This document shows positions 16,278 through 30,016 of a stretch of DNA of 54,182 nt, piece by piece. The position numbers and the translations under genes were made by a program. Origin of the DNA: Lachnospiraceae bacterium (GTDB lineage: Bacteria; Bacillota; Clostridia; Lachnospirales; Lachnospiraceae); assembly GCA_016282915.1 (NCBI GenBank), contig JAEELW010000011.1, positions 1 through 54,182 of the forward strand, read 5' to 3'. Under the pieces are notes generated by a model that searched no databases, was not told where the DNA came from, and saw nothing but the letters and a program-made list of their open reading frames with translations. Position 1 is the first letter of the stretch. Every line of letters begins with the position of its first letter.

Positions 16278-17319
16278 GGATTTTGAGAAAGAATACAAAA
16301 AACTGATCGAGGAAGATCCGCCTGCGCTTTGGGACCGTATAGAAAAAATGGTCGATGCGGCGATCGCCGAAGGGCCGACAGCAGCGGAAGAAGCTGAAAC
16401 GGGCACGGAAGCGGTAAGTGAGACGGAAGAAGATGAAGCGGTGCTGGCAGCAGGCGTGGCTGAAGTTCTCGGAGGAGCAGAACAGAAGACGGAAATGCTT
16501 TCCGAAGAAAAAAAGGACGATGAAAGCGGCAGCGAAGCTGACGACGAGGCGAAGGGCGTTATCGCAGGGGTGTTCGGAGCATCGGCTTCCGAAAAGGCTG
16601 CAGATGCGAAGGAAGGATCGGGCAAAAAGAAAAAGGTCTTTAACTGGCGGCGCTGGGTGCTGCCGGCGGCGGCTCTCCTGTGCGTAGCGATCATGATCCC
16701 CGTTGTGATCACAATAATGAACGGCCGCACGAAGCAGAACGAGACCGGCGCTCCGATGGCAGCCGCAGACAACAGTGTTATGGCGGATATGGCGATGGCC
16801 GAGGCATCCACAGATGCTGCCGCGGAAGTGGGTGAAGATAAGCAATCCTTACGCGGGGAAACGCAGGGAGTATCGTTGGTTCCGCAGAACAAGGATAATG
16901 GAAAAACCGTTCAGCCGGAAAACGGCGATATCTCCATTGAGGTCGTGACAGAAGCGGCCGGTGAAGATGCGGCGGAAGAAGAGGAAGAAGACCCGGATGA
17001 AGAAATTGATATAGAAGAAGATGATGAGGATTATGATGAAGACTATGATGATGAAGAAGACTGGGACGAGGATGAGGAAGAAGAGGAAGAGCTTGTAAAT
17101 GCGATCATCTACATCACCATCGATGAGGATACTCCGGCATCCGTGATCGATGAGATCGCGGCACAGTTCGGCCTGAGCAATCAGGGGTATGATGAGGAAT
17201 ATGACGAATATCATCTGGCAGTACCGAGTGCCATGACGGAGGAAGCACTGGATGACCTGGTAGATGCCATTGATGAAAATGAGAATGTGTGGAGCGTTTA
17301 CTGGGATTACGCCGAATGA
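16270..17319 (+). CDS. Putative membrane anti-sigma factor with acidic outer segment
   Basis: A 349-residue single-pass protein. The N-terminal part (1-125) is predicted cytoplasmic, begins NKDFEKEYKKLIEEDPPALWDRIE and is rich in Ala/Glu. One transmembrane helix lies at about 129-151 (VLPAAALLCVAIMIPVVIT). The outer part contains a very acidic run at about 232-275, almost only D, E and Y, and a small C-terminal domain (NAIIYITIDEDTPASVID ... VWSVYWDYAE). Its overlap with the ECF sigma gene by 8 nt argues for an anti-sigma role. No zinc-binding HxxxCxxC motif is seen, so it is not a ZAS-type anti-sigma. The acidic tract could sense divalent cations or cationic peptides (inference). Confidence 0.65.
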   Translation: MNKDFEKEYKKLIEEDPPALWDRIEKMVDAAIAEGPTAAEEAETGTEAVSETEEDEAVLAAGVAEVLGGAEQKTEMLSEEKKDDESGSEADDEAKGVIAGVFGASASEKAADAKEGSGKKKKVFNWRRWVLPAAALLCVAIMIPVVITIMNGRTKQNETGAPMAAADNSVMADMAMAEASTDAAAEVGEDKQSLRGETQGVSLVPQNKDNGKTVQPENGDISIEVVTEAAGEDAAEEEEEDPDEEIDIEEDDEDYDEDYDDEEDWDEDEEEEEELVNAIIYITIDEDTPASVIDEIAAQFGLSNQGYDEEYDEYHLAVPSAMTEEALDDLVDAIDENENVWSVYWDYAE

Positions 17320-17336
17320 TAAAGAAGGAGTCTGCC

Positions 17337-18776
17337 ATGACGAAAGATCATCCTTTTCTCGGAGCGTGCATGCTCCCCCATCCGCCCATCATCCTTCCGG
17401 AGGTGGGACATGGGGAAGAAAAAAAGATCAGCGCAACGGCTGAAGCATTTTCAAAAGCAGCGGATATGATCGCTTCGCTGCATCCGGATACCATTGTGAT
17501 CTCGAGTCCGCATACTGTGATGTATGCGGACTATTTTCATATCTCACCGGGAAAAGAGGCGCATGGGGATATGGGACGATTCGGCGCAGCGCAAGTGGAA
17601 ATGAGCGTGGAATATGATGCGGAACTTGCGGAGCTGGTCGCGGGACTTGCGGAGATGGAAGGGATCCCTGCGGGAGGCGACGGGCAGCGTGATCCTTCCC
17701 TGGATCACGGAGTGATGGTGCCGCTGTATTTCATTCTTCCGAAGTACTCCGAATTCAAACTGCTGCGGGTGGGACTTTCCGGACTGCCGCTTTCCGAGCA
17801 TTATCGTCTGGGGCAGTGCATCACGCAGGCACTTGCCCAGCTGGGACGCAGGGCTGTTTATGTGGCGAGCGGCGATCTGTCCCACAAACAGAAAGAGGAC
17901 GGACCCTACGGTCTGGCTCCCGAAGGACCGCAATACGATGAGCGCATCATGCGGGTCATGGGCAGCGGAAATTTTGGAGAATTATTCGATTTTGATGAGA
18001 GTTTCTGCGACAAGGCGGCGGAATGCGGACACCGTTCCTTCGTGATGATGGCGGGAGCGCTGGACGGCCGCGCGGTAATCGCGGAGGAACTGTCTCATGA
18101 AGCGACCTTCGGCGTGGGGTACGGTATCTGTCTTTTCCATCCGCAGGGAGCTGTGGAGGAGAGACGTTTTCTGAAGATAAGGGAAGAAAAAATGCTTTCG
18201 GAGATCAAAGCGGCCCATGATAAACAGGATCCTTTTGTACGGCTGGCGCGGATGTCGCTGGAAAGTTATGTGAGGGACGGTATACGCCTGGCGGATGCTG
18301 CCGCTGCGGTAAAAAAGGTGCTGGAAAACGAAGCGGAAGCGGAGGAACTGCGGGAGCAGCTTTTGGAGAAACAGGCAGGGGCTTTTGTATCCCTGCATAA
18401 GGACGGACAGCTCAGGGGCTGTATCGGGACCATACTTCCGGTGCGCAGCTGCCTCGCGGAGGAACTGCTGCGTAATGCCATAAGTGCGGGAACCGAGGAT
18501 CCGCGTTTTTCGCCGCTGCGTCCGGAGGAGCTGCCTTATCTGGAATACAGCGTGGACGTGCTGGGGGAGCCTGAAGATATCGCGGGACCGGAAGCGCTGG
18601 ATGTGAAACGCTACGGAGTGATCGTAAGCAAGGGTTTCCGACGGGGGCTGCTCCTGCCGGATCTGGACGGGATCGATACCGTGGAGGAGCAGATCGCCAT
18701 CGCAAAACGCAAAGCCGGGATAGGCCCCGGGGAGGAAGTGAGCCTGCAGCGTTTTGAAGTGGTGAGGCACCATTGA
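17337..18776 (+). CDS. MEMO1/LigB-like and AMMECR1 domain fusion
   Basis: A 479-residue protein joining two families usually annotated as AmmeMemoRadiSam system proteins B and A. Residues 1 to about 280 form a class III extradiol-dioxygenase/MEMO fold: ACMLPHPPIILPEVGHGE, VISSPHTVMYADYFHIS, GDLSHKQKEDGPYG. Residues about 300-479 are AMMECR1, with the hallmark LRGCIGTI at about 359 and FSPLRPEELPYLEYSVDVL. Biochemical function of the bacterial fusion is unknown. The third usual partner, a radical SAM enzyme of the AmrS type, is not adjacent. AAGGAG 6-7 nt upstream supports the start at 17337, 17 nt after the anti-sigma candidate, so it may be co-transcribed with the sigma operon. Confidence 0.92.
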   Translation: MTKDHPFLGACMLPHPPIILPEVGHGEEKKISATAEAFSKAADMIASLHPDTIVISSPHTVMYADYFHISPGKEAHGDMGRFGAAQVEMSVEYDAELAELVAGLAEMEGIPAGGDGQRDPSLDHGVMVPLYFILPKYSEFKLLRVGLSGLPLSEHYRLGQCITQALAQLGRRAVYVASGDLSHKQKEDGPYGLAPEGPQYDERIMRVMGSGNFGELFDFDESFCDKAAECGHRSFVMMAGALDGRAVIAEELSHEATFGVGYGICLFHPQGAVEERRFLKIREEKMLSEIKAAHDKQDPFVRLARMSLESYVRDGIRLADAAAAVKKVLENEAEAEELREQLLEKQAGAFVSLHKDGQLRGCIGTILPVRSCLAEELLRNAISAGTEDPRFSPLRPEELPYLEYSVDVLGEPEDIAGPEALDVKRYGVIVSKGFRRGLLLPDLDGIDTVEEQIAIAKRKAGIGPGEEVSLQRFEVVRHH

Positions 18777-19616: not shown

Positions 19617-21668
19617 ATGAGTCAGAAGAGTAATGAGAAATTCATTATTTTTGTCGCTACACTTGCATCGGTAGGACTGATCGTAGAGAATTTCGTGATG
19701 GGCTGGGAATTCTGGGTCCCGGTTGTAGTCGTTGTCGGTATCCTGTCCCTGTGGACGGTATATTTTATGGACAGGCTCGACCCCGGCATCCGTAAGTATT
19801 TCTATTTTGCCGTAGCTGTTCTTCTGCTGTTTTATCATGGCATACACAAGACCAGTCTTTTCGACATCGCGCTGGCTGTGGTTCTGGTCATGATTACCTT
19901 TTCCATACTAAACAGCGTTTATATGATGAATACGCTTCTATTGGAATTTTTCATCCTGCTGGGCATACATTTTCTGAATCTGCCCGGAGGCGATCCTCTC
20001 GTATACGACAGCCTTACCATATCCAGGATACTGCTACATGTGTCGATCGTTCTGCTGGTATATTCCATCAGCGTCAGAATGATCCGCGAAAGGCGCGAGG
20101 ATGAGGAAGAGAACAGGCGGAAGGAAGCGCGTATTGCCGCAAATGACGCAAGCATGGAGGATTTCCTGTCAAATATCTCCCATGAACTGCGCACACCGGT
20201 CAATGTCGTAAACGGTATGTCCGATCTGCTGATACGGAGAGGGGCGGGACAGGAAGCTGATGCCATCAGGTCGGCGGGAGTAAGGCTGGCGAACCAGATT
20301 GAAGATATCCAGGATTACACGGAATGCAAAAGGAAAAAGATCTTTCTTGAGGAAGAAAACTATATGAGTACCTCGCTGATCAATGATGTGGTCATGGGCT
20401 TCCGTTTGAGTGATAAGGCTGATGAGCTGGAACTGGTCGTGGATCTGGACCCGCAGACGCCCGCAATGATGAAAGGGGATATCAAGAAGCTTCATAAGAT
20501 CTTCCGGCATCTGCTGGAGAATGCAGTCAAGTTTACGAGACAGGGCGGTATCTCCGTAAAGATGTACAGCGAGAACACGGATTACGGGGTAAACCTGAGC
20601 ATAGAGGTGACGGATACAGGCATCGGTATGGACCGGAATGCGGTCCACTCGGTCACCGAGGGGATGTATCAGGAGAATAAAAAAAGAAACCGCAGTTCGG
20701 GAGGTATCGGTCTCGGACTGTTTATCGTGTATGGTTTTGCACACAGGATGGGCGGCTTCGTAAGGATCGAAAGCGAGAAAGGAAACGGGACGACGATACG
20801 GGTAACGATCCCGCAGAAGGTTGTGGACGCGAAACCCTGTCTGTCTCTGGAAAAGAACTTTGACGGAGCGGTCCTTTTCCATGTACGGCCGGATAAATAT
20901 AAGGTTCCGAGATTACGTGATTTCTATCGCGGCATGGCATCAAAACTTGCCATGGGCGTACATGTGCCTTTATATCCTGCGGAAACGGTTTACGAAGTGG
21001 AGCGGCTGAAGGGAAAACTGAATGTAAGCCATGTGTTTATGGGGCAGGAGGAATATGAGGAGAACAGGGGGTATTTTGAGGCTCTTGCCAAAGAAGGTAT
21101 CGTGGTGGCGGTTTCTGCGGGGAACGATCTGAAACTTCCCGAGAACAGCGGGGTCATGCTGCTGCCTAAGCCTTTATATGCTTATCCTGTGCTTAAGATC
21201 CTGAACGAAGGCAGGAATGCAAAAGATACGGACGGTGTTGAAAATACCGAGAAACCGGTATTCAGAGGAGTGCGGGCACTGGTCGTGGATGATGAACCGA
21301 TGAATCTTGTTGTGGCGACATCGCTCTTTCGTAATTACGAGATGATCATTGAAACCGCAGCAAGCGGAAAAGAGGCGATCCGTAAATACCGGGAGAATGA
21401 TTATGACCTGATCTTCATGGATCATATGATGCCGGAGATGGACGGCGTGGAAGCCATGAAGCAGATCAAGGGACTGGCGGAATCCCTGAACAGGGAGACC
21501 CCTGTCATCGCGCTCACGGCAAACGCTGTATCCGGTGCAAGGGAAATGTTCCTGCAGGAAGGCTTTGACGGCTTTATCGCAAAACCGATCAATATGGCGG
21601 ATTTTGAACGGGTGGTGCAGAGGGTACTCGGCAGTTCCCGCAAAGGCAGAGGAGGTGAGCGCAAATGA
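19617..21668 (+). CDS. Membrane hybrid histidine kinase with C-terminal receiver
   Basis: 683 aa. The N-terminus has about five hydrophobic helices (residues 8-155) with short loops, an unidentified membrane sensor. Then HisKA with the phospho-accepting His189 (SNISHELRTPVNVV), the N box LENAVKFT (about 300), the G boxes DTGIGMD (about 331) and GGIGLGLFIVYG (about 362). Residues about 400-540 look like a degenerate receiver (ends in LLPKPLYAYPVLKIL, no clear phospho-Asp). A canonical receiver follows (about 553-680): LVVDDEPMNL, phospho-Asp about 602 in FMDHMMPEMDG, ALTANA and FIAKPI. It has no Hpt domain of its own; one is supplied by the next gene. Start with AAGGAAGGT upstream; the stop overlaps the second kinase by 4 nt. 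Confidence 0.92.
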   Translation: MSQKSNEKFIIFVATLASVGLIVENFVMGWEFWVPVVVVVGILSLWTVYFMDRLDPGIRKYFYFAVAVLLLFYHGIHKTSLFDIALAVVLVMITFSILNSVYMMNTLLLEFFILLGIHFLNLPGGDPLVYDSLTISRILLHVSIVLLVYSISVRMIRERREDEEENRRKEARIAANDASMEDFLSNISHELRTPVNVVNGMSDLLIRRGAGQEADAIRSAGVRLANQIEDIQDYTECKRKKIFLEEENYMSTSLINDVVMGFRLSDKADELELVVDLDPQTPAMMKGDIKKLHKIFRHLLENAVKFTRQGGISVKMYSENTDYGVNLSIEVTDTGIGMDRNAVHSVTEGMYQENKKRNRSSGGIGLGLFIVYGFAHRMGGFVRIESEKGNGTTIRVTIPQKVVDAKPCLSLEKNFDGAVLFHVRPDKYKVPRLRDFYRGMASKLAMGVHVPLYPAETVYEVERLKGKLNVSHVFMGQEEYEENRGYFEALAKEGIVVAVSAGNDLKLPENSGVMLLPKPLYAYPVLKILNEGRNAKDTDGVENTEKPVFRGVRALVVDDEPMNLVVATSLFRNYEMIIETAASGKEAIRKYRENDYDLIFMDHMMPEMDGVEAMKQIKGLAESLNRETPVIALTANAVSGAREMFLQEGFDGFIAKPINMADFERVVQRVLGSSRKGRGGERK

Positions 21669-24600
21669 GACTGATCAAAGCTGCCTTTGATGCCGTAAAG
21701 GATCCGGAAAGGGACTTTATTGAACGGATCTTCCTGATCCTGACCTTCATGTCGGAAGTAACGGTGTTCATCGCCTTTATCGGCGATCTGATCACCGGTG
21801 AAAATCTGTATGAACTGATCATACTGGGTCTGACGATCACTCTGGTGCCGCTCATCGTTCTGATCTGCCTGCACTTTGATAAGCTGAAACTCGCGATCCG
21901 GCTAATCGTGATCGCTCTTGTGTTTGCCATCCTGCCGACGCTGTTCTTTTTCGGCGGCGGCCTGGAAGGCGGCGGCGTGCTCTGGATCATCTTCGCCTTT
22001 ATGTATGTCGGGCTTCTGCTCCGGGGCAAATGGCGCATGGTCATGTTTCTGCTGATCACGCTGCTGACCTTTGCCTGTTTCTTTACGGCCTATTGTTATC
22101 CGGAGACGGTATATCAGCATAGCCGGGAAATGTTCTATGTGGATTCCTTCCTTTCGCTGATCATGGTGGGCGTGCTCTGCTTTGTCATGACCTGGTCCCA
22201 GGGGCGTCTCTTTGCCCAGGAGAACGAGCGTGCGAAAAAGGAAGCGGAAAGAGCGGAGGAACTGACCCGCTCCCAGAACCGCTTTTTTTCCAGCATGAGC
22301 CATGAGATCCGTACGCCGATCAATTCCATCCTGGGGCTCAATGAACTGATACTCCGGGATCAGGAGGCTTCCGATGAGATCATCCGCGATGCTTTGGGGA
22401 TACAGGGATCGGGGAAAATGCTTCTGGCATTGATCAATGATATCCTCGATTTTTCCAAGATAGAGGCCGGAAGCATGGATATCGTTCCCGTTGATTACCG
22501 GATCGGGGATATGCTTTCGGAGATCGTTAATATGATGTGGCTCAGAGCGCATGATAAAGGGCTCGGTTTCGAAGTGAGCGTGGATCCGGAAGTACCACAG
22601 CTTTTGTACGGGGATGAAGTGCGTATCAAGCAGGTGATCATCAACCTGCTCAATAACGCGGTCAAATATACAAAGGAAGGCCACGTTGGTCTTCGTGTCG
22701 AAAGCAGGGAAGCCGAAGAGGATATGGTAGAGCTGCTGATCTCCGTGTCGGATACGGGAATGGGGATCCGGAAGGAAGATCTTCCTTATCTTTTTGACGC
22801 CTTTAAGAGAGTGGACGAAGGAAAGAACCGGCATATCGAGGGTACGGGACTGGGACTCAGTATCGTAAAGCAGCTGACAGAGCTCATGGACGGGAATGTC
22901 ACCGTGAGCAGTATCTACGGTGAGGGTTCTACGTTTTCGGTCAGTCTCCGGCAGAAGGTTTCCGATCACGGGAAGATAGGGGAGCTGAACATCCACAATC
23001 AGCAGGTGGTGAAGAGAAGTGTTTATGAGAGCAGCTTTCTGGCGCCTGAGGTCCGTATCCTGATCGTGGATGACAATGAGATGAACCTGGAAGTGGAGCG
23101 GAGACTTCTGGAAGATACCGATATGGCTATCGATAAGGCGCTGAGCGGGAAAGCAGCGCTGGATATGTGCCAGAAAGCGCATTATGACGCCATCTTCATG
23201 GACCATCTGATGCCGGAGATGGATGGTATCGAATGTCTGAAACTCCTGCGGGAACAGGCAGGCGGCCTGAACCGGAATACGCCGGTCATCGTGCTTACGG
23301 CGAATGCGGGAAGTGAGAACAGAGAACTGTATAACCGGGCAGGTTTTGACGGATATCTTGTAAAACCGGTTTCCGGTACGGCTATGGAGGAGATCCTGAT
23401 CCGGCATATCTCCAGGGAGAAGATCATACTCCGGAATGTAATGATGGGAGATGACAGCGAGATCCATACATCGGATAAGTATGCGGAAAAACTTCCGGTC
23501 GTCATCACCAGTTCGAATATGTGTGATCTGCCCGATCCTGTGATCCGCAAGATGCATATCCCCGTCATGCCTTTCCGCATCCGTACCGAAGAGGGCGTTT
23601 TCAAGGATGGCGTTCACATAGATGCTTATGAGCTGATCCGTCATGTATCCGAGGGCAAAGAAGCTGTTTCCGAGGTGCCGGATGAGGCTGAGTACACGGA
23701 ATTTTTTGCGGAGGCATTGAAAAAGGCTCATCATCTGATATATATCGCGCTCACGTCGAACATGAGTAAGGACTACAGGACGGCTTGTGAGGCAGCGAGG
23801 GCATTTGATAATGTTACGGTGATCAACTCGGAGGTGCTTTCCAGCGCTACCGGAATACTGGTGATGGTCGCCTGCAAGCTGGCGCAGCAGGGACTGTCGG
23901 TCAGTGATATCGTTTCCGAGCTGGAAAAGGTAAAAAAACAGCTGAGATGCAGCTTTATCATTGATACGACGGAATACATGGCAAGGAAGGGGCTGGTCAG
24001 CCGCAGGCTTCACGGGGTCGCAAAAGTACTGAACCTTCATCCGGCGCTGCGCGTCCGGAAAGACAGGACAGGCATCCAGGGATTCTGGTTTGGAAAAACG
24101 AAAAGAGCTTACCGGGGTTATATCAAAACAGCACTTCCGGCTGATGTGATCCCGGATCCGGAGCTGGTGTTTGTTACCTATGTGGATATCCCGGAAGAAA
24201 CACTTTCGTGGATCGAGGAGGAGATCGGGAAAGCGGCACGTTTTGAGCATGTGGTCTTTCAGCAGGCTTCGGCAGCCATTTCCACAAACTCCGGTCCCGG
24301 GACCTTTGGGATCCTGTATTTTACAAAATCGGACAAATCGTACAATATTGCATCCTTTATAGACGATGTGACCGCGGAGGAGAGAGCTGTGGAGAGCAGG
24401 GAAAGCATAGAGGAGCAGGCTCCGGAAAGCGATACGGAGGAAACAGAGCTTTCTGAGGCAGAGGAAGAACTGCAGCCCGTGCCGGAGGAACGGACGGAAC
24501 TGCTTGAAGAAACGGAGGATACATGGTATAAGGAACTGAAGTGTATCGATACGGAGGCGGCGATACGAAACAGCGGCTCCGCTGATGCATTTAAGGCGGT

Positions 24601-25111
24601 ATTGAAGATCTTCTTTGATTCTGTTACGAATAAGCATGAGGAACTGGAAAAGATTTATTCTGCAGAAGACTGGGAGGATTATACGATACGGATCCATGCA
24701 CTGAAGAGTTCGGCCAGACTGGTAGGGGCAACGGAACTCGGAGAAAAGGCAGAGCTGCTGGAGAATGCCGGGAAAGAAAAGGATACCGCTTACATCAGGG
24801 AACATCATCCGTCCGTTATGAAAGAGTATCTGGCCCTCCGGGACTCTCTTGCCCCGGTATTTACGCAGGAGCGGAACGGAGATGAAGGGAAAGAGAAAAA
24901 CAGGCCTGTAGCGGACAGTTACCTTATGGAAAGCATATATGAAGGGCTGCGTGAAGCTGCGGAGGCGATGGACTGTGACATGGTAGAAGAGATCCTGAAA
25001 GAGATTGATGGCTATGCCATACCTGAAGCGGAAAAGGAAAGATTCCTGCTGCTCCGGGGAAAGGCAGAGGCGCTGGATTATGAAGGAATGCTGGAAGTGC
25101 TGAAAGGATAA
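21665..25111 (+). CDS. Hybrid histidine kinase fused to a DegV lipid-binding domain and Hpt
   Basis: 1148 aa, an unusual composite. Order: six hydrophobic helices (about 20-190); HisKA with His213 (SSMSHEIRTPINS); HATPase (NLLNNAVKYT, DTGMGI, GTGLGLSIVKQL); receiver about 463-585 with phospho-Asp513 (FMDHLMPEMDG); then residues about 611-886 match the DegV/EDD fold: VVITSSNMCDLP at its start, ALTSNMSKDYRTACEAA, VINSEVLSSATGILVMVA, FIIDTTEYMARKGLVSRR and the terminal NSGPGTFGILYF. DegV (FakB) proteins bind a free fatty acid. A Glu-rich linker (about 895-945) leads to an Hpt domain with His1011 (HALKSSARLVGA), then a helical tail (about 1080-1148). The likely chain is His213 to Asp513 to His1011 to a separate receiver. 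A lipid sensor role is inference. Confidence 0.9.
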   Translation: MRLIKAAFDAVKDPERDFIERIFLILTFMSEVTVFIAFIGDLITGENLYELIILGLTITLVPLIVLICLHFDKLKLAIRLIVIALVFAILPTLFFFGGGLEGGGVLWIIFAFMYVGLLLRGKWRMVMFLLITLLTFACFFTAYCYPETVYQHSREMFYVDSFLSLIMVGVLCFVMTWSQGRLFAQENERAKKEAERAEELTRSQNRFFSSMSHEIRTPINSILGLNELILRDQEASDEIIRDALGIQGSGKMLLALINDILDFSKIEAGSMDIVPVDYRIGDMLSEIVNMMWLRAHDKGLGFEVSVDPEVPQLLYGDEVRIKQVIINLLNNAVKYTKEGHVGLRVESREAEEDMVELLISVSDTGMGIRKEDLPYLFDAFKRVDEGKNRHIEGTGLGLSIVKQLTELMDGNVTVSSIYGEGSTFSVSLRQKVSDHGKIGELNIHNQQVVKRSVYESSFLAPEVRILIVDDNEMNLEVERRLLEDTDMAIDKALSGKAALDMCQKAHYDAIFMDHLMPEMDGIECLKLLREQAGGLNRNTPVIVLTANAGSENRELYNRAGFDGYLVKPVSGTAMEEILIRHISREKIILRNVMMGDDSEIHTSDKYAEKLPVVITSSNMCDLPDPVIRKMHIPVMPFRIRTEEGVFKDGVHIDAYELIRHVSEGKEAVSEVPDEAEYTEFFAEALKKAHHLIYIALTSNMSKDYRTACEAARAFDNVTVINSEVLSSATGILVMVACKLAQQGLSVSDIVSELEKVKKQLRCSFIIDTTEYMARKGLVSRRLHGVAKVLNLHPALRVRKDRTGIQGFWFGKTKRAYRGYIKTALPADVIPDPELVFVTYVDIPEETLSWIEEEIGKAARFEHVVFQQASAAISTNSGPGTFGILYFTKSDKSYNIASFIDDVTAEERAVESRESIEEQAPESDTEETELSEAEEELQPVPEERTELLEETEDTWYKELKCIDTEAAIRNSGSADAFKAVLKIFFDSVTNKHEELEKIYSAEDWEDYTIRIHALKSSARLVGATELGEKAELLENAGKEKDTAYIREHHPSVMKEYLALRDSLAPVFTQERNGDEGKEKNRPVADSYLMESIYEGLREAAEAMDCDMVEEILKEIDGYAIPEAEKERFLLLRGKAEALDYEGMLEVLKG

Positions 25112-25384: not shown

Positions 25385-26350
25385 ATGCTCAAGAGTTTGG
25401 AAGAAACGATCGCCCTGATCAACGAAGGAAAGGTATTACATATTGCGGCAGACGATACGCTGCTCCGGAAGCTTCCGAAGGGGAAGTGGATCGGCGGGAC
25501 TACGCCGTACTTTATCAGTGAAGATGGGGGCGTTTTTTCAAAAGACAGACTTTTTGTGAACGTTATCGATCAGGCTGAGGATGTCCGTATCGCGGTATAC
25601 GGAAAGTATAATATCTTTCAGATCGTGGAAGAGTGTTATGATAACGGCCTTACGATGCTCATCATGCCCTTCGGATCAGCGGTGGCGATGAAATATGCCA
25701 GGGAGGCTCCCGATGTGGAAGAACTGCTCATGCATCCGGTCATCGGCTGGATCGCGGGTGCGGATCTGGATGATGGCGGAGAGATCAGGGTATATGACGG
25801 GAGCAGCGGAGAGTCCTATACCGATAAAGCGGTCGTCCTGTATATAAAGCTTCCCGAGGGAAAGAGCGCCATGATCAATATGATCAATATCTTCAGCGAC
25901 GACAAGACCGATCCTGTGATCCGCTTCTATGACAATGAACTGAACGTCACGAGGTGCAGTGTGAACGGTCAGGATGTGAGTTTTGCGGAGTATATCGGAA
26001 AGAAGGGCTTTGATGCGAAGATGCCTCTGGTGGCGGATTATAACGGCTCCTATATCAATACATCCATAAAGGAAGTGGGAGACGGAAAGGTCAGTTTTTA
26101 TGCCCCGGTATTTAAGGACATCGAATACCGTTTTGCCGTGCCGGTGGAGGATTATGCTGTGGAGTTTAAGAAACAGATCGACGCCGCGGGGGCTCGCAAT
26201 CCCGTCATTTCCTTTAACTGTATCCTGAATTATCTGTATTGCGGGCTGAACGGGAAGAAGACGCCGCCGTATACGGGGCCGGTCACTTTCGGGGAGGTGG
26301 CTTACCAGCTTATGAACCAGACCCTTGTTTATTACGAGATTTTAGGGTAG
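25385..26350 (+). CDS. Unknown protein, faintly FIST-like, in the kinase operon
   Basis: 321 aa, cytoplasmic (no signal, no membrane helix). The opening, SLEETIALINEGKVLHIAAD then LLRKLPKGKWIGGTTPYF, suggests a ligand-binding alpha/beta protein. Two regions recall FIST sensory proteins: the middle VIGWIAGADL followed by DKAVVLYIKL, and the end VISFNCILNYLYCGL then GPVTFGEVAYQLMNQTLV, comparable with the FIST C-terminal ending (GE...NQT). FIST proteins are small-ligand sensors often next to histidine kinases, which would suit this place, but the similarity is weak and read by eye. AGGAGGT precedes the ATG. The spacing to both neighbours is 36 nt. Confidence 0.6.
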   Translation: MLKSLEETIALINEGKVLHIAADDTLLRKLPKGKWIGGTTPYFISEDGGVFSKDRLFVNVIDQAEDVRIAVYGKYNIFQIVEECYDNGLTMLIMPFGSAVAMKYAREAPDVEELLMHPVIGWIAGADLDDGGEIRVYDGSSGESYTDKAVVLYIKLPEGKSAMINMINIFSDDKTDPVIRFYDNELNVTRCSVNGQDVSFAEYIGKKGFDAKMPLVADYNGSYINTSIKEVGDGKVSFYAPVFKDIEYRFAVPVEDYAVEFKKQIDAAGARNPVISFNCILNYLYCGLNGKKTPPYTGPVTFGEVAYQLMNQTLVYYEILG

Positions 26351-26386: not shown

Positions 26387-27166
26387 ATGGGAGCTGCCGA
26401 CAGTAAGGAGATCGTCATTCTCATGTTTCAGTACAGTGTCATAGTCAAGGGCATTGAACGGAAACTTGCAGAGCTGGAATACAGTGTCGAAACGGTTACG
26501 GAAAACATTGAAGAAGCAGCGCTCCGCCTTGTGGACAGGGCAGCATTGTTTATGTTCTATCTGCCCGGCGATATCATGGAGGATATTCTGAAAAAGAATG
26601 TCCTGCTCAGGGTCAGCGAGATCATCAGAGACAGCGGTCAGCGGATGATCATATTCGGAGAGAAGAAGTATCATGAGGAACTGATCGCGGATATCCCGCA
26701 GGCTGCCGGTTTTGGCTGGATGGACCGCCCTGTGGATATGAATGCTCTGGAGGCGATGGTACACAGGGAGTTAAACCGGGTTACGGAAGCCGTGACAAAA
26801 AAACGTATCCTGATCGTTGATGATGATCCTTCCTATGCCAAGATGGTCAGGGAATGGATCAGGGATGACTACAGGGTGGATATCGTGACAGCCGGGATGC
26901 AGGCGATCAGCTTCCTGCTCAGGGTACCCGAGAACGAAAAGGTGGATCTGATCCTTCTGGATTATGAGATGCCTGTCGTGGACGGGCCGCAGGTGCTGCA
27001 GATGCTCAGACAGGAAGCAGCTACGGAACATATCCCGGTGATCTTTCTCACCGGCATAGGGACAAAGGAAGCGGTATCCCGGGTCATGAGCCTGAAACCG
27101 GACGGATATCTCCTGAAGTCTACGACCAGGGCGGAGATCCTGAGTTTCCTTAAAAAGAAGATCTGA
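26387..27166 (+). CDS. Double-receiver response regulator without output domain
   Basis: 259 aa. Residues 1-130 look like a degenerate receiver: EIVILMFQYSVIVKGIERKL at the start, no canonical acidic pair, and a final FGWMDRPVDMNALEAMV resembling the KP-helix5 end. Residues about 137-259 form an intact receiver: ILIVDDDPSYAKMVREWI, phospho-Asp in LILLDYEMPVVDG, the Thr in FLTGIG and Lys in YLLKSTT. No DNA-binding or enzyme domain follows, so it should act by protein interaction, as single-domain regulators do. Its place downstream of a kinase with an Hpt domain makes it a candidate end acceptor of that relay. RBS AGGAGG is clear. Confidence 0.88.
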   Translation: MGAADSKEIVILMFQYSVIVKGIERKLAELEYSVETVTENIEEAALRLVDRAALFMFYLPGDIMEDILKKNVLLRVSEIIRDSGQRMIIFGEKKYHEELIADIPQAAGFGWMDRPVDMNALEAMVHRELNRVTEAVTKKRILIVDDDPSYAKMVREWIRDDYRVDIVTAGMQAISFLLRVPENEKVDLILLDYEMPVVDGPQVLQMLRQEAATEHIPVIFLTGIGTKEAVSRVMSLKPDGYLLKSTTRAEILSFLKKKI

Positions 27167-27173
27167 GGCAGAA

Positions 27174-29081
27174 ATGATGAAACGATCATATATAGCTTCC
27201 GCAGCTGCGGTATTTGCGCTTTCGGCAATGCTGCTGACAGGCTGTGGGGATGATGAAGCGCAGAGAGTGCTGGCGGAGGCGGCGACCGAGCCGGCCGAAA
27301 TGCAGGCGGGCGGGCAGCAGCCGGCAGCAGAAGAAAAAAGCAGTGACAACACAGCTTATGAAAAAGGAAGCGTGATCCGCATTTCCTGTGCAACGGACGG
27401 ACAACAGGGCCGTATGCGTTTTACGGAGGATATGCAGATCGACGGACGGAGCTATCACAGAGGTGATCTGAAACCCGAATGGGCAGCATTACAGGACCGG
27501 CTGGATATCGTGATCGAAGACCACTACGGCGGGGAGACGGATACGGAGTGTTTTCAGCGCTGGCAGGAAAAGCTGGACAGCATTGATATGCTGTCAGTCT
27601 CGGGATTGCAGATGAAGGAAGCCGGGGAAGCCGGGGAACTGGCAGATCTGTCGGAATACCTTGACAGGATGCCGCATTTTGCTGCTTTTCTTGAGGAAAA
27701 TCCCGTTGTACGCATGAGCATCTCGCTTTCGACGGATGAAGACCATGCAGGAGCCATTTATGCGGTTCCTTATCTTTCCGATCCGAAAAAGATCGAAAAA
27801 CTTCCTTATATGCGGGCCGACTGGGTAAAGATCCTTCTTGACGGTAAGGATGAATTTGCACCGCAGATGAGCGGAAGGACAGCGCTTCCCGTTTATCAGC
27901 CTTTCATGCCGCTTGAAGGAAAGCTCAGCGTGGAAGTGGTGAAAGCGGACGGCAGCGGTACGGAAACGATCAGCAAAAATTATGATGCAGCCGGAAATAT
28001 CATTGCAAAGATGAATGCAGCCGGAGCCATGAGCGGAACGGATGCGGTGAACATGTTCCGCAGCTATATCGATGAAGCTTATAACGGCTATTACGGAACA
28101 AAACGCTCCGATCTTTTCCTTGGCAGGAACGCAGCCTGGGATGCGGATGAGCTGGTGGCGCTGCTTCGCTGTACGCTCGCAAATACCGCGACGCTTTCTC
28201 CGGAGGGAAATGTAACGGGGCTGTTTGCGCCGCGGGAAGACAGCAATGCGAGCCGGGCCGGGCTGTATCAGCTTGCAGGAATGCTTTTCGGTGTGCGGGG
28301 GCTGAACAGCGATGCTTATCTCTATATCGACAGGAACGGCGTGCTGCATGACGCGCGCTGTGAACAGGGCAGCTATGATGTGCTGCTGAAGATGAACGAA
28401 ATGAACAGGGAAGGTCTGATCAGTTCCTTCTATGTGAACGGCGGGCAGAATATGCTGAATAACGCGGAACCGGTGACATATCAGGGCCTGATGACTTATG
28501 CCGGGCGGGATCCGCAGCTTATTGACGTGGAAGGAGAAGCGGATGAGGGTTGTATCCCGGTCATGATCCCGCTGTCCCTTTGGGATGACGGCAGCGGCAG
28601 CAGCTGCATGCGTTTCACTGAAAATGTGGGAAAGATCCTTCCCGGCGGCTGGGCGATCTCCGCCAAAGCCGTGAAGGATGATGAAAACAGACTGAATGCC
28701 TGTCTGGCACTGATCGATCAGCTCTATGCGGATGCAGCCGGGGAGGAGCAGGAAGAGGAAACGATCGACCTTGCTTTGCGGCTGGAAACGGTACGACAGA
28801 CTGTTCCTGCGATTGAGGGAGATTTATGGTACACAACGCCGCCGTCGGCTTTTGCGGTGACAAACACTGAAGACGAGGCGCTTCTCGGTCTTAACACGCT
28901 GGAGGAAGGTTTTTCTCAGGAACGGGTCGGAAACGGAGAGAATATATTGATCAATGTGATGCTCCGGGCGGATACCGGCACTCCGGGAGGAGAAGCGGCT
29001 GCGGCGGAGTACTTTGGCGGCCGCGGCGGCAGCCGAAGGCTCGGGATCCTGCAGGCAGCCTGGGACGGGATGCGGAAATGA
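27174..29081 (+). CDS. Large extracytoplasmic lipoprotein, solute-binding-protein-like
   Basis: 635 aa. A lipoprotein signal peptide ends in the lipobox LTGC with Cys24 (MMKRSYIASAAAVFALSAM...). An Ala/Glu/Gln-rich linker follows to about residue 60. The remainder resembles family 1 / LipO-type extracellular solute-binding proteins: IRISCATDG, LADLSEYLDRMPHFAAFLEEN, IYAVPYLSD, YMRADWVKILLDG and an aromatic-rich C-terminal lobe. No ABC permease genes are adjacent, so it may serve the upstream kinases as a sensor rather than a transporter component (inference). It starts 7 nt after the response regulator and its end overlaps the radical SAM gene by 4 nt. Confidence 0.75.
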   Translation: MMKRSYIASAAAVFALSAMLLTGCGDDEAQRVLAEAATEPAEMQAGGQQPAAEEKSSDNTAYEKGSVIRISCATDGQQGRMRFTEDMQIDGRSYHRGDLKPEWAALQDRLDIVIEDHYGGETDTECFQRWQEKLDSIDMLSVSGLQMKEAGEAGELADLSEYLDRMPHFAAFLEENPVVRMSISLSTDEDHAGAIYAVPYLSDPKKIEKLPYMRADWVKILLDGKDEFAPQMSGRTALPVYQPFMPLEGKLSVEVVKADGSGTETISKNYDAAGNIIAKMNAAGAMSGTDAVNMFRSYIDEAYNGYYGTKRSDLFLGRNAAWDADELVALLRCTLANTATLSPEGNVTGLFAPREDSNASRAGLYQLAGMLFGVRGLNSDAYLYIDRNGVLHDARCEQGSYDVLLKMNEMNREGLISSFYVNGGQNMLNNAEPVTYQGLMTYAGRDPQLIDVEGEADEGCIPVMIPLSLWDDGSGSSCMRFTENVGKILPGGWAISAKAVKDDENRLNACLALIDQLYADAAGEEQEEETIDLALRLETVRQTVPAIEGDLWYTTPPSAFAVTNTEDEALLGLNTLEEGFSQERVGNGENILINVMLRADTGTPGGEAAAAEYFGGRGGSRRLGILQAAWDGMRK

Positions 29082-30016
29082 CCCTGGAAAAAACGCAGGG
29101 CTGCATGCTGTGTCCGCGGCGCTGTAATGCTGACCGTGCTGCGGGAGAGAAGGGGTTTTGCGGAGGCGGGACCCTGCCGGTGCTCGCGAGGGCGGCATTG
29201 CATTTCTGGGAGGAACCCTGTATCTCCGGGGAGAGCGGCAGCGGAGCTGTTTTCTTTTCGGGATGTAACCTGGGCTGTGTTTTCTGCCAGAATCACAGGA
29301 TATCACGTATGCGGGACGGAGAACTCTTCGGCAGGTCCGTAAGTCCGGAACGTCTGTGTGAGATCTTTTATGAGCTTAAGGAGCAGGGGGCGGCCAATAT
29401 CAATCTGGTCACCGGCGATATCTATATTCCGGCGTTGGCGGATGCCATCGGCCGGGCGAAGCGGCAGGGTTTTTCTCTGCCTTTTGTGTTTAACAGCTCG
29501 GCTTATCTTGAGAAGGAAGCTCTTCATATGCTGGAAGGACGGATCGATGTCTATCTTCCGGATATGAAGTTTTATTCGAAAAAGCGCGCGGAAAGATACT
29601 GCCATGCGGCGGACTATCCGGAGAAGGCGGCAGCGGCCATAAGGGAGATGTTCCGTCAGACGGGAGAATGCCGTTTTGATGAAAAAGGTATGATAAAAAA
29701 GGGACTGATCCTCCGGCATCTGCTTTTGCCGGGAGGGCTGCTGGAAGCAAAGCTGATCCTGAAAAAGGCATACCGTGAATACGGAGATGCCGTGTATTTT
29801 TCCCTGCTGAACCAGTATACGCCGATGCAGGGACAGCTGACGGCATTTCCCGAACTGCAGGAGCGCGTGCCGGGGCGCGAATATGATGAACTGGTGGAAT
29901 ATGCGCTTTCCCTGGGGATACACAACGCCTGGATACAGGAGGACAGCAGCGGGGAGGATTATATCCCGGAATTTGATATGACGGGGGTGCTGTGTCCCGA
30001 AACGCAGGTATCATAG
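29078..30016 (+). CDS. PflX-like radical SAM protein
   Basis: 312 aa. The radical SAM cluster motif CX3CX2C is visible as CNLGCVFCQNH (about 66-76), with the gly-rich NLVTGD stretch after it. An N-terminal CMLCPRRCNADR and GFCGGG add further cysteines, as in the COG1313 PflX group related to pyruvate-formate-lyase activating enzymes. It is distinct from the AmmeMemoRadiSam radical SAM type, which has a different spacing and extra N-terminal region. Substrate is unknown; a glycyl-radical or other modification target is possible. It is the last gene of the kinase operon by spacing (ATGA overlap). Confidence 0.85.
   Translation: MTLEKTQGCMLCPRRCNADRAAGEKGFCGGGTLPVLARAALHFWEEPCISGESGSGAVFFSGCNLGCVFCQNHRISRMRDGELFGRSVSPERLCEIFYELKEQGAANINLVTGDIYIPALADAIGRAKRQGFSLPFVFNSSAYLEKEALHMLEGRIDVYLPDMKFYSKKRAERYCHAADYPEKAAAAIREMFRQTGECRFDEKGMIKKGLILRHLLLPGGLLEAKLILKKAYREYGDAVYFSLLNQYTPMQGQLTAFPELQERVPGREYDELVEYALSLGIHNAWIQEDSSGEDYIPEFDMTGVLCPETQVS

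Follow-up and report, generated by a model that had tools for sequence, protein, structure and literature searches.

A stretch of 54,182 nucleotides from a Lachnospiraceae bacterium (assembly GCA_016282915.1, contig JAEELW010000011.1, positions 1 to 54,182), hereafter called the window, carries a gene (21665–25111, + strand) in which a hybrid histidine kinase is continued on the same chain by a domain of the DegV family. Here we describe this protein, named the DegV kinase, together with the kinase-like gene that precedes it. The gene is a single ATG-started open reading frame of 1148 amino acids, and its domains, the preceding kinase gene and the two genes that follow it all lie on the forward strand. 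The first 190 residues (21665–22234) form a membrane region, as judged by eye from the hydrophobic sequence. They are followed in Pfam by HisKA (residues 204–269, E 4.3e-16; 22274–22471), HATPase_c (residues 316–430, E 1.5e-27; 22610–22954), a receiver (Response_reg, residues 465–576, E 9.4e-25; 23057–23392), DegV (residues 613–887; 23501–24325) and a histidine-containing phosphotransfer (Hpt) domain (residues 979–1045, E 2.1e-08; 24599–24799). The kinase, receiver, DegV and Hpt parts are thus on one chain, and the phosphorylation sites are where a preliminary description of the sequence had put them: H213, the phospho-acceptor, opens the HEIRTP motif in HisKA, D513 lies in MDHLMPEMDG (from residue 512) of the receiver, and H1011 of the Hpt domain lies in IHALKS (from residue 1010). 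The start of the gene overlaps by 4 nucleotides the end of a second hybrid kinase gene (19617–21668), whose 683-residue product consists of HisKA, HATPase and receiver domains with no Hpt match in Pfam. Between the ATPase and the receiver of this partner there are approximately 130 residues (about 408–540) without a Pfam match, perhaps a degenerate receiver. The system is real and conserved: a diverged DegV domain has been built into a hybrid-kinase phosphorelay, and the involvement of fatty acids is a hypothesis.

Over residues 613–887 the match to the Pfam family DegV (PF02645) reaches an E value of 1.7e-39 and 136 bits against a cut-off of 27, and it covers profile positions 4–279 of 280. 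The NCBIfam DegV profile TIGR00762 is matched with 146 bits (cut-off 99.7), and in phmmer the protein matches DegV-fold entries of the PDB, the best being 2dt8 (7.6e-23). An AlphaFold2 model of residues 604–896, made with 80 sequences, has a predicted local distance difference test score (pLDDT) of 87.3 and a predicted template modeling score (pTM) of 0.85. When this model was compared with the PDB using Foldseek, ranks 1–45 of the best 50 matches were DegV/FakB entries with query TM-scores (TMq) of 0.71–0.86, and several of these entries are titled with palmitic, oleic, vaccenic, stearic or linoleic acid. A chance profile match is ruled out by the Pfam score and the structural neighbors. The full-length DegV fold that had been claimed from the sequence therefore holds, the model having a TM-score of about 0.8 to solved DegV/FakB proteins. 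Such a predicted fold makes a lipid-type ligand the best guess for the domain.

In a model of the receiver, DegV and Hpt parts together, the individual domains are good and the pTM is 0.47. The pLDDT falls below 50 in three stretches, namely residues 591–606 (receiver to DegV), 902–951 (DegV to Hpt) and 1069–1078. The linker between the receiver and DegV comprises approximately 22 residues and that between DegV and Hpt approximately 70, with low model confidence for both. According to the alignment and the model, the second linker (residues 893–965; 24341–24559) is poorly conserved. Among 81 distinct complete proteins of the same HK-REC-DegV-Hpt architecture (HK, histidine kinase; REC, receiver), the mean pairwise identity is 77% in the kinase core, 71% in the receiver, 60% in DegV, 57% in Hpt, 46% in the membrane part and 26% in the DegV-Hpt linker.

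The genome of the window encodes five DegV genes, of which only the one described here is in a long frame, and also a full FakA (TIGR03599, 582 bits). Among 60 genomes (its own and relatives), a match extending into the DegV part was found in 21, all in the genus of the window and 11 of them with two or more such matches. At the order level (392 genomes) at least 34 matches in at least 26 genomes were within frames of at least 650 amino acids, and at the class level (391 genomes) three genomes of another family (f66) also carry the fusion. At the phylum level (398 genomes) there was no such frame outside the family of the window among the matches listed at E 1e-55. A pattern scan of named genomes yielded 557 matches. 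Relatives made up 480, the best 80 of which were kept as named loci, and the fusion status given here covers those 80. The fusion was seen in 79 of the 80 contigs, the frame of the remaining one being cut by the contig end. By their titles these loci belong to Lachnospiraceae or Butyrivibrio; the exceptions are two Eubacterium sp., one Clostridia and one "uncultured bacterium". Isolates account for nine of the loci, including Butyrivibrio sp. VCD2006, XPD2002, MC2021 and NC2007; 19 are from a ruminant gut site by title, and several more are Butyrivibrio. In addition, DegV was found in a long frame in 34 open reading frames from the window and relatives outside the named set. The collection amounts to 128 fused frames, of which 121 are distinct, and seven contigs common to both collections were counted once in the figures for distinct loci. 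An assembly artefact is ruled out by these 121 distinct copies, which come from many assemblies, isolates included. As the preliminary description had supposed, no account of such a protein was found in literature searches, as judged from the titles and abstract beginnings among the matches listed.

Two types of fused protein can be delineated. The long type, as in the window, is HK-REC-DegV-Hpt of approximately 1100–1200 residues, and its upstream partner has mostly about 683. The short type is HK-REC-DegV, mostly of about 890 residues with DegV at the C-terminus, and its upstream partner has mostly about 820–1000. Where at least 2.6 kb of upstream sequence was at hand, a kinase-like gene of at least 440 residues directly precedes the DegV kinase in 101 of the 105 distinct loci (78/79 long type, 23/26 short type), with the 4-nucleotide overlap present in 59 of the 78 long-type and 5 of the 23 short-type loci. 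The four misses comprise L097, where only a fragment adjoins, L193, with a kinase in two frames, L194 and L199, the last with 438 residues, below the limit. The location of Hpt was recorded at a Pfam E value of 0.001 for the window and the relatives outside the named set; these counts exclude 68 partners of named loci, both genes of L041, the cut L035 and the split partner of L193. In the long type Hpt was found in 16 of 18 DegV kinases and in none of the 18 partners, and in the short type in 22 of 24 partners and in none of the 29 DegV kinases. Mostly, then, a pair of kinases has one Hpt, on either chain, which suggests that the two adjacent kinases would form one phosphorelay. At L041 (7262–10078) the long-type gene stops soon after DegV and its Hpt is off frame, which is either real or an assembly error.

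The binding pocket was compared through FakB2, in which Thr61, Ser93, Arg170, Arg202 and His266 are taken by us to be the equivalents of FakB1 Thr62, Ser95, Arg173, Arg205 and His270, in agreement with the motifs. Mapped via FakB2, these positions are occupied in the window by S669 (23669–23671), S701 (23765–23767), L777 (23993–23995), F809 (24089–24091) and N875 (24287–24289), respectively. In two FakB studies, Thr62, Ser95, Ser171 and His270 of FakB1 are given as a network at the fatty-acid carboxylate; Arg173 is the latch, required for the Fak reaction and dispensable for fatty-acid exchange, the patch in contact with the membrane includes Arg205, and both arginines are described as completely conserved in FakB (PMC8892158, PMC9136124). 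In the Thr62-Ser95-His270 network of the window domain the Thr is thus conservatively replaced by Ser, the Ser is kept and the His is changed to Asn. The latch arginine is lost (L777), and at the second arginine the family motif gives F809, just before the conserved G810, the pairwise alignment giving K811 instead. Of the two findings that the preliminary description named as refuting it, a missing profile match does not apply, the match being significant, and the loss of pocket residues applies in part, some of them being changed.

These replacements hold for most of the fused copies. The residue counts started from 161 segments, reduced to 154 by dropping seven identical ones; one segment shorter than 230 residues (the stand-alone L001 611–1477) and the fused copy L161, cut at a contig edge, were also dropped. 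The 27 stand-alone DegV proteins have Thr61, Arg170, the Arg202 equivalent and His266 in all cases and Ser93 in 25 (Thr in two). In the long type (n = 84) Ser is at the Thr61 position in 82 and at Ser93 in 83, Arg170 is kept in four, the Arg202 equivalent in none, and at His266 there are 79 Asn and no His. The corresponding numbers for the short type (n = 29) are 15, 18, 14, 0 and 25, with one His. Over all 113 fused copies, Arg170 is kept in 18, the Arg202 equivalent in none and His266 in one (Asn in 104), and Ser is at the Thr61 position in 97. Eight cut or broken long-type copies, tallied apart, all have Ser, Ser and Asn and no Arg. The short stand-alone L001 segment has Ser at the Thr61 position, which would bring Thr61 to 27 of 28, and by the alignment keeps Arg170, Arg202 and His. 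Outside the counts, inspection by eye gave GGR and His for 12 more stand-alones and Asn for another three fused copies. Membership of the fused domain in FakB was rejected on the Arg170 and Arg202 positions. The preliminary description had likened the domain to FakB proteins presenting a fatty acid to FakA; this analogy is not supported in that form, the residues at Arg173, Arg205 and the carboxylate His being replaced across most fused copies. With Arg170, the Arg202 equivalent and His266 largely gone, the fused DegV is probably not a FakB serving FakA.

In a quick IQ-TREE phylogeny of 111 rows (108 DegV domains and three solved proteins, midpoint-rooted for drawing only), all the fused domains together with those of two split loci, L191 and L207, are on one side of a branch with a Shimodaira-Hasegawa-like approximate likelihood ratio test (SH-aLRT) support of 100, and 38 other stand-alones and the three solved proteins are on the opposite side. 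The long-type rows, 36 in number including three cut copies, form a nested group (SH-aLRT 99), which gives the presence of Hpt on the DegV chain the look of a derived state. L207 (2802–7999) has the unfused form, with a hybrid kinase carrying Hpt and a stand-alone DegV gene between this kinase and a REC-GGDEF gene. L191 (1598–5803) is a three-gene split operon of an HK-REC without Hpt, a DegV-Hpt protein of 414 residues and a REC-GGDEF, and it would be a second event putting Hpt on the DegV chain. As far as their gene order goes, both split loci fit the one-Hpt rule. The free DegV of L207, within its kinase operon, has the fused-type letters (Asn, Leu) at the changed sites, so that the residue change tracks the signaling context and not fusion as such. 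The earlier suggestion that DegV is placed between receiver and Hpt, where it could gate phosphotransfer, thus applies to only one derived clade, the more diverse members ending at DegV with Hpt on the neighboring kinase. As the general mechanism, a DegV wedge that separates receiver from Hpt within a single chain is ruled out by the short type, in which no DegV kinase has an Hpt match (0/29).

Downstream of the DegV kinase there is a gene for a DUF6976 (PF22396) protein (25385–26350), followed by a response regulator gene (26387–27166) with one receiver (residues 141–253) and no output-domain match in Pfam. A DUF6976 homolog is found within 450 nucleotides downstream in 36 of 75 named relatives, and a homolog of the regulator within 4.5 kb downstream in 38 of 53. 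Upstream of many copies there are REC-GGDEF and REC-HD_5 genes, examples of which were confirmed by Pfam. A GGDEF-motif gene on the same strand is located within 4.5 kb upstream in 30 of the 72 long-type and 7 of the 18 short-type distinct loci, against a background of 57 GGDEF matches in the 3.85-Mb genome of the window, some of which are two stretches of one frame. Among stand-alone DegV loci an upstream GGDEF was seen in none of the four with enough sequence, which are too few for a control. There is no GGDEF match on the contig of the window, so the link to cyclic di-GMP (c-di-GMP) rests on the relatives, and a c-di-GMP output for the window copy is unsupported.

Several further genes were noted in this region. 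Positions 27174–29081 encode a protein of 635 residues that is a putative lipoprotein, judging by eye from a signal and LTGC, and that matches nothing in Pfam at E 1; no homolog of it is present within 4.5 kb downstream in any of the 53 named relatives. The genes at 17289–18776 and 29078–30016, which flank the kinase region, resemble by eye the Memo/AMMECR1 and radical-SAM proteins of the AmmeMemoRadiSam set. In two relatives (L040 5020–6543 and L043 2162–3685) a membrane protein of 507 residues, by eye like a sodium/alanine symporter, is encoded between the kinase (or DUF6976) gene and the regulator.

From the sequences and the structural models, we give a probability of about 0.5 to the reading that the DegV kinase is one half of a two-kinase phosphorelay in which DegV, separated from fatty-acid kinase, would bind a lipid-like ligand as a receptor in the cytoplasm. 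The ligand would most likely be a fatty acid or another acyl compound, and the loss of the two arginines would allow the domain to hold it without giving it to FakA. The receivers of both kinases would deliver phosphate to one common Hpt (H1011), and Hpt would pass it to a response regulator encoded nearby. In a fair share of the relatives this regulator would be a c-di-GMP enzyme, and in the window the regulator without output at 26387. Loading or emptying of the pocket would shift the balance of the relay, in a direction and toward a target that we infer only. Since the linker to the receiver is the shorter one, DegV would perhaps act on the neighboring receiver or kinase core rather than on Hpt, which is on a longer disordered tether; this may favor slightly the receiver/kinase side over a gate between receiver and Hpt. 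The near fixation of S669, S701 and N875 in the long type counts for a receptor.

A number of observations weigh against this reading. Domains located C-terminally to a receiver are outputs more often than sensors. The pTM of 0.47 and the low pLDDT of residues 591–606 lend no support to a tight coupling between receiver and DegV, and the split loci encode DegV apart from the kinase chain. Few independent events underlie the one-Hpt pattern, namely one long-type clade and L191, and no Hpt match was found in two of the 18 long-type kinases and two of the 24 short-type partners. The short-type site is looser at both Ser positions and at Arg170, and only the long type therefore gives a clean picture. 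The basic K811, beside the Arg202 position, may keep the charge nearby, and the replacements of His by Asn and Thr by Ser could point to another ligand or to a pocket that holds none. According to one study, mutating the carboxylate network of FakB gave unstable proteins (PMC8892158).

The changed head-group site, with Asn for His in 104 and Ser for Thr in 97 of the 113 fused copies, is also what a receptor for another small carboxylate or metabolite in a reshaped pocket would show; such a non-fatty-acid ligand is less likely than not, and against it the 45 top-ranked structural neighbors are of the DegV/FakB class, many of them titled as solved with a fatty acid. The main mechanistic rival reverses the roles: phosphorylation of the receiver would alter the lipid handling of DegV (release, capture or membrane docking), so that the relay regulates a lipid carrier. 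Here the order of domains speaks for an output, DegV being C-terminal to the receiver and the short type ending at DegV without an Hpt match, as output domains do, and so do the short linker to the receiver and the long, poorly conserved one to Hpt. The FakA-related arginines are mostly lost, though, which makes an output in the Fak pathway unlikely, and c-di-GMP-domain response regulators adjoin a good part of the copies. We hold this explanation to be unlikely.

It is quite unlikely that DegV is a structural leftover that serves dimerization or spacing without a ligand. The replacement of functional FakB residues and the variation of the short type at the carboxylate site would agree with this; yet N875, S669 and S701 hardly vary among the 84 long-type sequences, the domain varies less than the membrane region and the linkers do, and L207 keeps DegV as a separate gene in the operon. 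A true FakB, presenting fatty acid to FakA and coupling acyl-phosphate formation to the relay, could draw on the full FakA and four other DegVs of the same genome and on the 18 copies with Arg170, but with the Arg202 equivalent in none of the 113 and His266 in a single copy it appears very improbable.

If DegV domains of this class have become lipid receptors of a two-kinase relay that sets c-di-GMP, rumen Lachnospiraceae such as Butyrivibrio could read their cytoplasmic load of free fatty acids and adjust lifestyle or detoxification. Butyrivibrio fibrisolvens is described as inhibited by polyunsaturated fatty acids, which it survives by biohydrogenating them (PMC2836310). A fatty-acid sensor in such bacteria would presumably bear on the process that shapes the fat of milk and meat. 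The DegV kinase may be an undescribed lipid-sensing route of gut bacteria. The broader view that this DegV class left fatty-acid metabolism and became the lipid receptor of a two-kinase, one-Hpt relay setting c-di-GMP is less likely than not. Since the residues divide cleanly and isolate genomes of Butyrivibrio carry the fusion, the idea can be put to a direct test.

Similarly to FakB1 and FakB2 of Staphylococcus aureus and DegV of Bacillus subtilis, the window domain has a full-length DegV fold (TMq about 0.8), with the carboxylate-site Ser kept and Thr changed to Ser. It differs from them in being fused to a hybrid kinase, in the changed positions of Arg173, Arg205 and His270, and in its place on the opposite side of the SH-aLRT 100 branch. 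To our knowledge, DegV proteins have been described as carriers that serve fatty-acid kinase and not as signaling domains, hardly any kinase is known to have a folded lipid-binding domain in the cytoplasm, and SaeS of S. aureus has no DegV domain.

RpfC of Xanthomonas carries Hpt, and RpfG has the HD-GYP anatomy. As a functional analogue, the resemblance to the present system would be that of a fatty-acid-responsive membrane hybrid kinase, REC-HD_5 or REC-GGDEF genes being near several of the present relatives. However, RpfC is described to bind the fatty acid diffusible signal factor (DSF) at a 22-residue N-terminal region (PMC5391125), a short region and not a DegV domain. In the S. aureus SaeRS two-component system, fatty acids are reported to be negative regulators whose level is set by fatty-acid kinase (PMC5539427); there the kinase acts indirectly, via the fatty-acid pool.

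In the long type the HK-REC-Hpt anatomy on one chain is the same as in TorS, BarA and EvgS, whose NCBIfam profiles were matched, all under their cut-offs. Unlike in those proteins, a DegV domain of approximately 280 residues is inserted, a partner kinase is encoded immediately upstream, and Hpt is found on either partner. In the Rcs phosphorelay the adjacent genes of the kinase-like RcsC and RcsD also share one Hpt, but here both proteins match HisKA and HATPase_c and one of them carries DegV. What is new here is the second hybrid kinase gene upstream and the presence of Hpt on one kinase or the other.

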